A stretch of DNA of 64,000 bases from contig NZ_AP024718.1 in NCBI RefSeq assembly GCF_030294985.1, positions 62,001 through 126,000 on the forward strand, in the 5' to 3' direction. Both the position numbers and the translations under genes were made by a program. Origin of the DNA: Methylomarinovum tepidoasis (GTDB lineage: Bacteria; Pseudomonadota; Gammaproteobacteria; Methylococcales; Methylothermaceae). Each line of letters starts with the position of its first letter. Positions within the stretch are counted from its first letter, which is position 1. Positions 17,742 through 44,438 of this stretch are shown here, in pieces. Under the pieces are notes generated by a model. That model was given only the letters and a program-made list of their open reading frames with translations. It searched no databases and had not been told where the DNA came from.

Positions 17742-18767
17742 CTAGTCGGCATCCGGACGGAAGAAGTGGGCAGGACGCTCTATCTCGGGGCGTTCCCCCT
17801 GCCGGGGAAGCCGGCCGGCCTGCTGCAATTCCTCCAGCCACAGATCGTGATGCTGCCGGGCCCAGGACAGATCGACCTTCCCTGAGATCATGCCTTCCAA
17901 CGCGCCCTCGGTGCCCAGGGTGCCGATGTAGATGTGCCCCAGAGAGGCGGCCATGACGATCAGAGCCGCGGCGACGTGGAGGATATGGCTCAACTGCAGG
18001 GATTCGCGCTCGAGGCCGAACAGGGGCAGATCGAGAAGCAGGCCGGTGACCGAGACCACCGCCCCCACGGTCATCAGCAGCCAGAACCAGGCTTTCTCAC
18101 CGGCGTTCATGCGCCCGGCATGGGGATGGCCGCCGCCGAACAGGCCGCCGAAGGACTTGAACCAGTCCCAGTCGATCTTCCGCCACAGGTTGTCGCGGAA
18201 CCAGGTCAGGCCCATGACGATCAGACAGGCGACGAACAGGGGGCCGATGAGATTGTGGGTAAATTTGGCGATGGCGAGATAGGCGGCGAAGGTCTCGTGA
18301 CCGATCAGGGGGATCAGCAGCCGGCGGCCGTAGAGCAGGCTCAGGCCGGTAAGGCTCAGGAGGATGAACAGGACCGCAGTAGCCCAGTGCAGCACCCGCT
18401 CCCCCAGGCTCCAGCGCAGCACCCGGATGCCGGTGCGGGGCTTTTCCAGCCGCTGGGGACCGTGAAGCAGATGAAACAGCCCCAGAATCAGCACCACACC
18501 ACCGAGCACCAGCCCTCCGGCCCAGGACAGTGGCCCGTTGCGCCAGCGGCGCCAGACCTCGCCGGAGGCCTGGATCAGCTCGCCGCTTTCCAGGCCACGC
18601 ACCGCGCTGTAGCCTTCCACCCCTTCGCGCACCTGGCGCCACAGCTCGGCGCGGGGGTTGTTCCAGTCGACGGTCGCCGCCACCAGCCCCACCGACAGCA
18701 GCAACAGGACCAGCCCGGTGACCTGCCAGAGTCTGCGGTTTCGTATCGATGACATCACGGCAGCCAT
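17742..18767 (-). CDS. fdhC: Formate dehydrogenase cytochrome b556 (gamma) subunit
   Basis: This is the membrane di-haem cytochrome b that passes electrons from the periplasmic Fe-S subunit to the quinone pool. The 341 residues have an N-terminal helix and extra periplasmic region, then the FdnI-like four-helix core. Haem-ligand His candidates are RVLHWATAVLFILLSLTGL, AKFTHNLIGPLFVACL and QLSHILHVAAALIVMAASLGH, followed by the family-typical IYIGTLGTEGALEGMISGKVD. It lies 2 bp after the small lipoprotein gene and is the last gene of the fdh operon. Confidence 0.92.
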   Translation of the reverse strand: MAAVMSSIRNRRLWQVTGLVLLLLSVGLVAATVDWNNPRAELWRQVREGVEGYSAVRGLESGELIQASGEVWRRWRNGPLSWAGGLVLGGVVLILGLFHLLHGPQRLEKPRTGIRVLRWSLGERVLHWATAVLFILLSLTGLSLLYGRRLLIPLIGHETFAAYLAIAKFTHNLIGPLFVACLIVMGLTWFRDNLWRKIDWDWFKSFGGLFGGGHPHAGRMNAGEKAWFWLLMTVGAVVSVTGLLLDLPLFGLERESLQLSHILHVAAALIVMAASLGHIYIGTLGTEGALEGMISGKVDLSWARQHHDLWLEELQQAGRLPRQGERPEIERPAHFFRPDAD

Positions 18768-18769
18768 GG

Positions 18770-19075
18770 TCAGCGGTCCGTCTGTACCATCAGCGCCCGT
18801 TTGCGCAGGGTTGCAGCATCGGGATAGTGTTCGTGGACATCCGCCTTGCCGGCATACTCGGGATTGCGGTCGAAAACCCGGTCGGCTTCACGCTCGCAGG
18901 CAGCCAAGCCGGCAACCACTCCCAGCAAAAGGGTAAAAGCACAGCGCCGCCAAGCGTCTCCGGCCGTCCGGCTGGAGGGCATACCCGGCCTGGATGGCCG
19001 GGTTTCGAGCCTACAGGGACGTACGTGCGGCGTCCCGGAAGCCAGACGGCCAGAGACGCTTCCCCACCACTTCAT
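18770..19075 (-). CDS. Small lipoprotein of the formate dehydrogenase operon, with repeat-encoded N-terminal segment
   Basis: The C-terminal 58 residues form a lipoprotein-like protein: RRCAFTLLLGVVAGLAACE carries a signal sequence and lipobox LAAC, followed by a charged segment ending RALMVQTDR. The ATG at 19075 overlaps the fdhB stop (ATGA) and has GGGAGAAG upstream, giving 101 residues. However, about residues 6-41 are encoded by a copy of the intergenic hairpin repeat (18953-19060), putting an Arg/Pro-rich stretch before the signal. An in-frame ATG at 18982, inside the repeat, would give a 70-residue protein with a more ordinary signal peptide. The repeat probably inserted near the original start. 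The function is unknown; position suggests a role in formate dehydrogenase maturation or anchoring. Confidence 0.6.
   Translation of the reverse strand: MKWWGSVSGRLASGTPHVRPCRLETRPSRPGMPSSRTAGDAWRRCAFTLLLGVVAGLAACEREADRVFDRNPEYAGKADVHEHYPDAATLRKRALMVQTDR
18953..19060. repeat. Long-hairpin repeat, copy A (inside the small fdh lipoprotein gene)
   Basis: Outer stem arms 18953-18973 and 19040-19060 pair over 21 bp with two mismatches, both becoming G-U pairs in RNA from the minus strand. The conserved core holds an inner hairpin CCCGGCC-TGGAT-GGCCGGG (18984-19002), then CGAGCCTACAGGG and GCGGCGTCC. The core is shared with copies B, C and D; the outer stem sequence is not. Confidence 0.85.
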
Positions 19076-19686
19076 GGTTTCTTCTCCCCATAAGCCGGCC
19101 CCCACCCCCACGGCACCTTGGGCTGGGCCGGTTTTTCGTCGCGGTCGGCGCGGCGCACCACCCGCTCGCGGAAGATGTCGGCGATGACGTCGCCGTCGCC
19201 TGCCAGCAGGGCCTTGGTGGAACACATCTCGGCGCACAGCGGCAGCTTGCCCTCGGCCAGACGGTTGCGGCCGTACTTCTCGAATTCGGCCTCGGAAAAG
19301 TCTTCCTCGGGGCCGCCGGCGCAGAAGGTGCATTTGTCCATCTTGCCCCGGACCCCGAAGGTGCCGTTCTGGGGGAACTGGGGGGCGCCGAAGGGGCAGG
19401 CGTAGAAACAGTAGCCGCAACCGATGCACAGATCCTTGTCGTGCAGCACCACCCCGTCCTCGGTGACGTAGAAGCAGTCCACCGGGCAGACGGCAGCGCA
19501 AGGTGGGTCGGAACAGTGCATGCAGGCCACCGAGATGGATTTCTCCCCCGGCTGGCCGTCGTCAAGGGTCACCACCCGGCGGCGGTTGACCCCCCAGGGC
19601 ACTTCGTGCTCGTTCTTGCAGGCGGTGACGCAGGCGTTGCATTCGATGCAGCGCTCGTCGTCACAGAGAAACTTCATCCGCGCCAT
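19072..19686 (-). CDS. fdhB: Formate dehydrogenase iron-sulfur (beta) subunit
   Basis: This subunit transfers electrons from the catalytic subunit to the cytochrome b through four [4Fe-4S] clusters. The 204 residues contain CIECNACVTACK, CMHCSDPPCAAVCP, CIGCGYCFYACP and a C-terminal CTFC...CAEMC set. Unlike E. coli FdnH it lacks a C-terminal membrane helix. The start at 19686 (MARMKFLCDDERC) has GGGGGAG upstream; the longer frame to 19788 only reads through repeat B. Its stop overlaps the lipoprotein start. Confidence 0.95.
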   Translation of the reverse strand: MARMKFLCDDERCIECNACVTACKNEHEVPWGVNRRRVVTLDDGQPGEKSISVACMHCSDPPCAAVCPVDCFYVTEDGVVLHDKDLCIGCGYCFYACPFGAPQFPQNGTFGVRGKMDKCTFCAGGPEEDFSEAEFEKYGRNRLAEGKLPLCAEMCSTKALLAGDGDVIADIFRERVVRRADRDEKPAQPKVPWGWGPAYGEKKP

Positions 19687-19701
19687 GGGACTCCCCCTTG
19701 C

Positions 19702-19803
19702 TGTGCCGGGAAAGGGGTTCCAGGGACGCCGCAAGTACATCCCTGTAGGCTCGAAACCCGGCCATCCAGGCCGGGTACGCCCTTCCACCCCTTTCCCGGC
19801 ACA
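19702..19803. repeat. Long-hairpin repeat, copy B (fdhA-fdhB gap)
   Basis: Outer arms 19702-19718 and 19787-19803 are a perfect 17-bp inverted repeat (TGTGCCGGGAAAGGGGT). The core is in the opposite orientation to copy A: GACGCCGCAAGTACATCCCT, GTAGGCTCG, then the CCCGGCC-ATCCA-GGCCGGG hairpin. It begins just upstream of the fdhB Shine-Dalgarno sequence. Confidence 0.9.
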
Positions 19804-19828
19804 CCAACGCCAGCCCGGTGCCGAGACA

Positions 19829-19929
19829 GGGAAGGGGAGCCGTTTTTCGGGGTGTACGCGGCCCGGACGGCCGCGTACAAGCCTCCAGGTAAGGATTCAC
19901 GGCGTCCCCGAAAAACGGGTCCCCTTCCC
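19829..19929. repeat. Long-hairpin repeat, copy C (fdhA-fdhB gap)
   Basis: Outer arms 19829-19852 and 19906-19929 pair at 23 of 24 positions. The inner hairpin TGTACGCGGCC-CGGAC-GGCCGCGTACA (19853-19879) is perfect and differs from the other copies by paired changes (GCGGCC/GGCCGC instead of CCCGGCC/GGCCGGG). AAGCCTCCAGG and ATTCACGGCGTCC follow. It starts 25 bp from copy B, so the two fill most of the 274-bp gap between fdhA and fdhB. Confidence 0.9.
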
Positions 19930-19960
19930 CACCTTGTCAGAAACTGCTGGCCCATGGGCA

Positions 19961-35431: not shown

Positions 35432-35448
35432 TATCCCCACCACTGGAA

Positions 35449-35557
35449 GGCAGCGGGTGGAACGGGGATTTCAGGGCGTACCCGGCCTGGACGGCCGGGT
35501 CCGAGCCTCCAGGGATGGATCGACGGCGTCCCTGAAATGCCCGTCCCACCCGCTGCC
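35449..35557. repeat. Long-hairpin repeat, copy D (hinT-purH gap)
   Basis: Outer arms 35449-35476 and 35530-35557 pair at 26 of 28 positions. The core reads GCGTACCCGGCC-TGGAC-GGCCGGGTCC, then GAGCCTCCAGGGATGGATCG and ACGGCGTC, in the same orientation as copies A and C. It fills the gap between the convergent hinT and purH, ending 2 bp before the purH stop, and may act as a two-way terminator. Confidence 0.9.
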
Positions 35558-35559
35558 AC

Positions 35560-44301: not shown

Positions 44302-44326
44302 TGCGGACCTGACAGTCCGGCTTCCG

Positions 44327-44416
44327 GGGCGGGGAAGGGTCTGCCGGACCGAAATTCGTCCGTGAATTTAGGCCCGGCGCGGCCCTCCCTGGCCGCTGAC
44401 AGACCCTTCCCCGCCC
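44327..44416. repeat. Three-way-junction hairpin element (repeat E)
   Basis: Outer arms 44327-44343 and 44400-44416 are a perfect 17-bp inverted repeat (GGGCGGGGAAGGGTCTG). Inside are two hairpins: 44343-44378 (GCCGG...CCGGC with AAATTC-GTCCGT-GAATTT at its tip) and 44379-44396 (GCGGCC-CTCCCT-GGCCGC). The layout of long outer stem plus a GGCC-centred inner hairpin resembles copies A-D, but the core sequence is different, so it is a relative at most. It follows gpmA. Confidence 0.75.
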
Positions 44417-44438
44417 TTGCAAGCTCATAAGCCGCTAC

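Follow-up and report, generated by a model that had tools for sequence, protein, structure and literature searches.

Small repetitive elements that have entered bacterial genes in frame are on record in several groups. According to the part of a review that deals with them, the Rickettsia palindromic elements (RPE) have entered many genes in frame and encode a conserved peptide, and Correia elements, which can undergo inversion, also have in-frame insertions on record (PMC10969869). In-frame insertions are likewise mentioned, in the relevant section of another paper, for QMITE2 of Coxiella, a MITE (PMC5896051). The locus considered here resembles the RPE case in that a short palindromic repeat, hereafter copy A, lies in frame in a protein gene and is apparently tolerated by the host protein.

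The stretch of DNA that was analysed (the window, 64,000 nucleotides) comes from Methylomarinovum tepidoasis IN45 (genome label G000), a cultured methanotroph from a hot vent with a genome of about 2.44 Mb; the sister species is M. caldicuralii IT-9 (G003). The published chromosomes measure 2,421,873 nt in IN45 and 2,694,844 nt in IT-9 (PMC10950024). The window carries an FDH3-type formate dehydrogenase operon in the order fdhA, repeat copies C and B, fdhB, a small lipoprotein gene and fdhC. The fdhA gene was assigned by reading its sequence and not by profile scan; fdhB (19072-19686, minus strand; NF038355, 1.5e-104) encodes the FDH3 beta subunit, and fdhC (17742-18767, minus strand; TIGR01583, 5.2e-50) the formate dehydrogenase gamma subunit. 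Between these two lies the lipoprotein gene (18770-19075, minus strand), with 101 codons plus stop. None of the Pfam and NCBIfam models matched its product at E <= 0.01. The part after the repeat (18770-18958) recurs 3' of fdhB in other FDH3 operons, and 10 of 12 lipoprotein sequences end in QTDR at the C-terminus.

Copy A (18952-19061, minus strand) consists of outer arms and a 62-nt core, is read in frame as codons 6-41, and matches the covariance model of the family, R1, at 18950-19063 with 109.5 bits. The pairing arms lie at 18952-18973 (3' arm) and 19040-19061 (5' arm), both on the minus strand; counted along the coding sequence, nucleotide +15 is the first of the stem. The arms are complementary at 20 of 22 nt (91%), and the inner hairpin has an 8-bp stem and a 5-nt loop. 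The original prediction held that the stem mismatches were G-U compatible, and both exceptions are indeed U-G on the mRNA strand in IN45; in IT-9 one is U-G and one A-C. Folding gives -75.3 kcal/mol (z -7.3) for copy A of IN45 and -60.3 (z -4.9) for that of IT-9. In a longer mRNA context the hairpin still forms (z -2.7), and the predicted fold places the start codon within a short helix of its own neighbourhood; a partial mRNA fold (z -1.55) that misses some of the 3' arm was set aside. The predicted start at 19075, coupled to the fdhB stop, is borne out in the sequence, as the ATG overlaps that stop (ATGA) and a frame of 101 residues traverses the repeat. This frame reads through the whole element as expected, although the arm-to-arm span is 110 bp and not the 108 bp first given. 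The element adds to this frame the 36 residues foreseen (codons 6-41); their enrichment in Arg and Pro is mild, because the element codons give only 6 Arg and 5 Pro. Copies A and B align over 68 nt at 91% identity (19716-19783 on the copy B side, opposite strand), and the internal ATG at 18980-18982 (minus strand), which is codon 32 in IN45, reads ACG in copy B, as had been noted, and ACG also at codon 32 of IT-9. A 52-nt core pattern allowing up to 3 mismatches has an expectation of 0 in the window and was found twice, as copies A and B; together with the folding scores and the number of model matches in the genome, this sets chance aside as the source of the repeat.

Copy A is one member of a repeat family in which the 62-nt core is conserved and the arms, although different at each site, co-vary. 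Model R1 was built from 29 IN45 copies, and its structure was partly read from those same similarity-chosen copies. At E <= 0.01, and with 150 of 2169 candidates scored, it finds at least 47 copies in IN45; IT-9 has 36. Matches occur in 22 of 101 related genomes and, in a class-wide sample of 274 genomes, in 44 at E <= 1e-4. Within the window, R1 matches copy B (19696-19809, plus strand, opposite to A) and copy C (19823-19935, minus strand), both between fdhA and fdhB, a further strong copy at 35447-35559 and a weak one at 44319-44425 (the last two recorded without strand). In a methane-oxidising endosymbiont of Gigantopelta, a match (L042:5158-5266) lies about 300 nt downstream of fdhC. Among the 29 IN45 copies, which were chosen by similarity, 281 cells keep their pairing although both partners have changed, vs 83 in shuffles, and every one of the 22 outer-stem pairs shows at least one compensated double change. 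Mean arm identity between non-orthologous copies is 0.41, vs 0.31 for shuffled arms; for non-orthologous copies whose cores are at least 95% identical it is 0.37 (n=10), vs 0.85 in 14 orthologous pairs. Such unlike arms between copies with the same core could mean that the arms are remade at each move; fast paired change of the arms under a constrained core accounts equally well for them. No match was obtained with Rfam at the gathering score for 12 loci, nor with composite cores in the plasmids and phages searched. Below the Rfam threshold, copies B and C (19703-19947) resemble Ysr224 (a Yersinia sRNA), and copy C resembles SNORD17 (E 1.9e-6); these resemblances are taken as chance hairpin matches. 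Matches to miRNA hairpins also stayed below it. Searches of the open-licence literature returned no account of the family, and core words searched as text surfaced a single paper, on Salmonella fimbriae.

The distribution of the segment among orthologues bears directly on its origin. A search with the 62 residues after the repeat matched nine of 101 genomes, the source genome included and one of them (G016) weakly (E 0.008); the congeners G005 and G006 gave no lipoprotein match in this search. Of 23 loci examined, four duplicate the contigs of G001, G004, G007 and G008, L048-L051 gave no fdhB tail, and L042-L044 have no such lipoprotein after fdhB. Among the 12 distinct lipoprotein loci the segment is present in two, those of IN45 and IT-9, where copy A has the same place, frame and length. 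The other ten lack it between the start and the signal peptide, and model R1 found no repeat copy in them; six belong to congeners (G001, G002, G004, G007, G008 and G009), and the remaining four (L040, L045, L046 and L047) are more distant. Orthologues with the segment and without the repeat, originally named as the refuting case, number none among the 12 loci. The coupled start is retained in the six other congeners with the gene, as ATG in five and GTG in G009. Read from the coupled ATG, the N-terminus is MSGRRRRLLRGWW... in G004 and MSDRRRPGRQVAGSRLLGWW... in G008. With the insert removed on paper, the IN45 gene would begin MKWRRCAFTLLL, by eye an ordinary lipoprotein signal; the copy A flanks, TGGTGG and TGGCGG, form an imperfect direct repeat, also read by eye. 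With ten of 12 loci free of the segment, this comparison favours the proposal that the element inserted beside the original start. The exact insertion target is only inferred, since the outgroup pair G004/G008 differs at the N-terminus. Compared with G004, the N-terminus of G008 (L030) is longer, and 15 nt there match the element in inverted orientation, 6 nt of them being also present in G004; this stretch may be what is left of an earlier insertion that has otherwise disappeared.

The explanation that we prefer, and regard as quite probable on the sequence comparisons, is that a non-coding palindrome was inserted in the lipoprotein gene before the split of IN45 and IT-9, and that translation runs from 19075 through about 36 extra residues in the n-region. 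Copy A would have entered about three codons into the gene. Since the frame stays open, translation would still start at the coupled ATG, and in the pre-protein the additional residues would lengthen the n-region of the signal peptide, to be removed on maturation. The extended form is presumably made and lipoprotein processing presumably still works; the element would have been inserted in IN45/IT-9 rather than lost elsewhere, and tolerated because the n-region is discarded. Several points weigh against this reading: so stable a hairpin, beginning at +15, might impede translation, the start codon is itself paired in the longer fold, and the gene was not found in G005 and G006. The idea that the repeat extended the protein agrees with its being in frame from the coupled ATG in both species and with the existence of segment-free relatives. 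The original prediction is right in its anatomical part and also, within the limits of sequence evidence, in the extension. Comparison of IN45 with IT-9 separates the two parts of the gene: in post-repeat codons pN is 0.030 and pS 0.226 (4 of 14 changes nonsynonymous; Fisher p 0.0002), and in element codons pN is 0.116 and pS 0.164 (9 of 14; p 0.53). Judged by these rates, the mature lipoprotein is under purifying selection and the repeat codons are near neutral; the protein is therefore probably used in both species. Across the 22 stem positions of copy A, 15 are unchanged, three double and three one-sided changes keep the pairing, and one one-sided change breaks it, all three double changes being transitions. 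It is apparently the hairpin, and not the amino-acid sequence, that evolution has preserved in copy A.

Sites at which only one species has a copy give some indication of how the elements come and go. For 16 of the 19 IN45-only copies the flank was located in IT-9, the other three having no match; of these 16 sites, three look clean, four retain an arm and nine are unreadable. At the clean sites IT-9 has a single word of 5-6 bp that is doubled in IN45 (CCACT, TCAGT, CCACAA); about 19 extra bases lie beyond the arm at one of them, 1065996, and the copy at 35447 of the window is among the apparently clean empty sites. This pattern fits insertion with a short duplication, and a precise deletion would look identical; the IT-9 sites that keep an arm look as after deletion. 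The capture of arms from the target was discarded as a candidate, neither arm being found in the three clean empty sites. No R1 copy accompanies any of 18 Y1-transposase loci (L184-L201, in 11 genomes), and a search of IT-9 at E <= 0.001 returned no Y1 transposase despite its 36 repeat copies. The IN45 plasmid carries an IS200-type Y1 transposase (L186, G000:C2:6491-6850) at a locus without a repeat copy.

Shared sites are more informative about the stem. A copy occupies the same site in IT-9 for 28 IN45 copies, all three of the fdh operon included. At 8 of 26 shared sites (L094, L095, L105, L107, L109, L110, L114 and L120 and their IT-9 counterparts) the core is inverted relative to its flanks between the species. 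The inverted copies were revealed by a codon-phase scan of the flanks, and in the seven pairs that could be scored core identity is 0.89-0.98 in the element frame vs 0.21-0.39 reversed. The tandem IN45 copies at 1408540 and 1408684 (L092) correspond to one hybrid IT-9 copy at 2202994 (L152), with the left arm of one and the right arm of the other; its arms now match poorly, and it looks as after recombination between cores. Stem changes were counted in 23 pairs, after dropping the two IN45 copies that share the hybrid, two pairs with a short copy and one out of register. In these pairs 362 positions are unchanged; where both sides have changed, 51 pair and 6 do not, and one-sided changes leave 24 paired and 26 unpaired. 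The 57 changes on both sides compare with 23.1 under permutation (sd 3.3, maximum 35 in 5000 permutations), and 29 of the 51 compensated ones include a transversion, so that one G-U intermediate would not suffice to produce them.

During replication, strand switching at a hairpin can rewrite one arm from its partner, so that mismatches are corrected and the core is sometimes flipped. Such a process might keep the stem by mutation and not by selection, an alternative that is compatible with the extension explanation and to which we give appreciable credence, somewhat short of even. The excess of double changes over permutation, of which 51 of 57 still pair, the transversions among them and the inverted cores all point towards it. 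Against it, 26 one-sided changes stay unpaired and the three double changes of copy A are transitions only; structural selection with compensation also yields double changes, and recombination between arms could flip cores too. Hypermutability of the arms was considered and is unneeded, because their divergence in same-orientation pairs, 0.146 (17 pairs, two hybrid rows included; 0.250 in 8 inverted pairs), does not exceed the pS of neighbouring genes between the two species (0.16-0.23). A wider proposition is advanced with more reserve and seems rather doubtful, namely that these are class-wide palindromes whose arms are rewritten by strand switching while the core flips, the 36 codons of the in-frame copy then following nucleic-acid folding and not the protein.

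A second alternative, which we hold to be unlikely, is that the hairpin functions as RNA in the fdh operon, for example by setting the ratio of lipoprotein to FdhB or protecting the mRNA, and that selection keeps its stem. The position of the hairpin from +15 onwards, the preservation of the copy A stem through double changes and, on the mRNA strand, U-G steps, and the presence of three copies in one operon, each with an IT-9 counterpart, agree with such a role. Stem conservation is, however, family-wide at other sites, so no local RNA role is needed; IT-9 copy A has its A-C mismatch on the mRNA strand, and other congeners do without copy A. Moreover, mismatches in the element orientation show an excess of G-T over A-C in IN45 (52 vs 25, p 0.003), an excess that IT-9 lacks (26 vs 29, p 0.79).

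That the repeat donated a new start had been the other outcome proposed, and translation beginning at the ATG at 18982, with an incidental upstream frame, is now highly improbable. This ATG does exist in IN45, in frame before a usable signal peptide. It is rejected as a donated start because it is absent in IT-9, whose mature protein is equally conserved; in addition, it lies immediately 3' of the 8-bp inner hairpin stem, abutting it on the downstream side, and the coupled start persists in the six congeners. The coupled ATG is the sole in-frame ATG, GTG or TTG of IT-9 before the hydrophobic region; a CTG stands at codon 11 in both species, and the remaining start candidates up to codon 60 fall in the hydrophobic region. 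For IT-9 the coupled ATG is then the expected start of translation, the CTG being a less likely one. As for a frame left open by chance in a decaying or untranslated gene, the high GC makes open frames common and of little information (each of 83 copies has at least one across it), and the idea is nevertheless hardly credible given the purifying selection on the mature part, the retained coupled start in congeners, and the fact that both copies A are open in the frame that is least often so of the six (15 of 77 full-length copies, vs 42 to 64 for the others).

The insertion in the lipoprotein gene offers a natural case of a palindromic repeat joining a protein frame, in two species that are sequenced and cultured and with insertion-free relatives for comparison. 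Copy A suggests that nucleic-acid pairing can persist while the encoded residues drift. With 28 copies shared by IN45 and IT-9, it becomes testable whether selection or templated mutation maintains the arms of palindromes.

Compared with known systems, the family differs from RPE in that the RPE peptide is conserved, whereas the copy A peptide drifts, the arms are site-specific and a single in-frame case is established. With the GTAG and CGTC REP families, as they appear in the part of the source that describes them, it shares palindromic, intragenic units, some families of which lie inside longer palindromes (PMC3733652); the main text of that paper contains no word beginning with "Methylo". 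CGTC REPs have a stem of 8-9 bp and a loop of 4-5 nt with a CGTC tag; the inner hairpin of the family has a stem of 8 bp and a loop of 5 nt. The conserved GTAG tag is not found here, TGTA standing at that place in 5 of 29 copies, and the outer arms are much longer and variable. A REP/RAYT identity was rejected, with the tag absent and no neighbouring Y1 transposase found. MITEs and Correia elements are likewise small elements that fold into long hairpins, but MITE terminal inverted repeats are common to the family, whereas the arms here vary by site (0.41 vs 0.31 shuffled). In chloroplast DNA, small inversions are linked to hairpins, the spacer between complementary arms flipping among relatives; those are isolated hairpins, unlike the present family with its conserved core. 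In-frame palindromic insertion is therefore already known in kind, and the co-varying, site-specific arms together with the frequent inversion of the core are the more notable features of this family.
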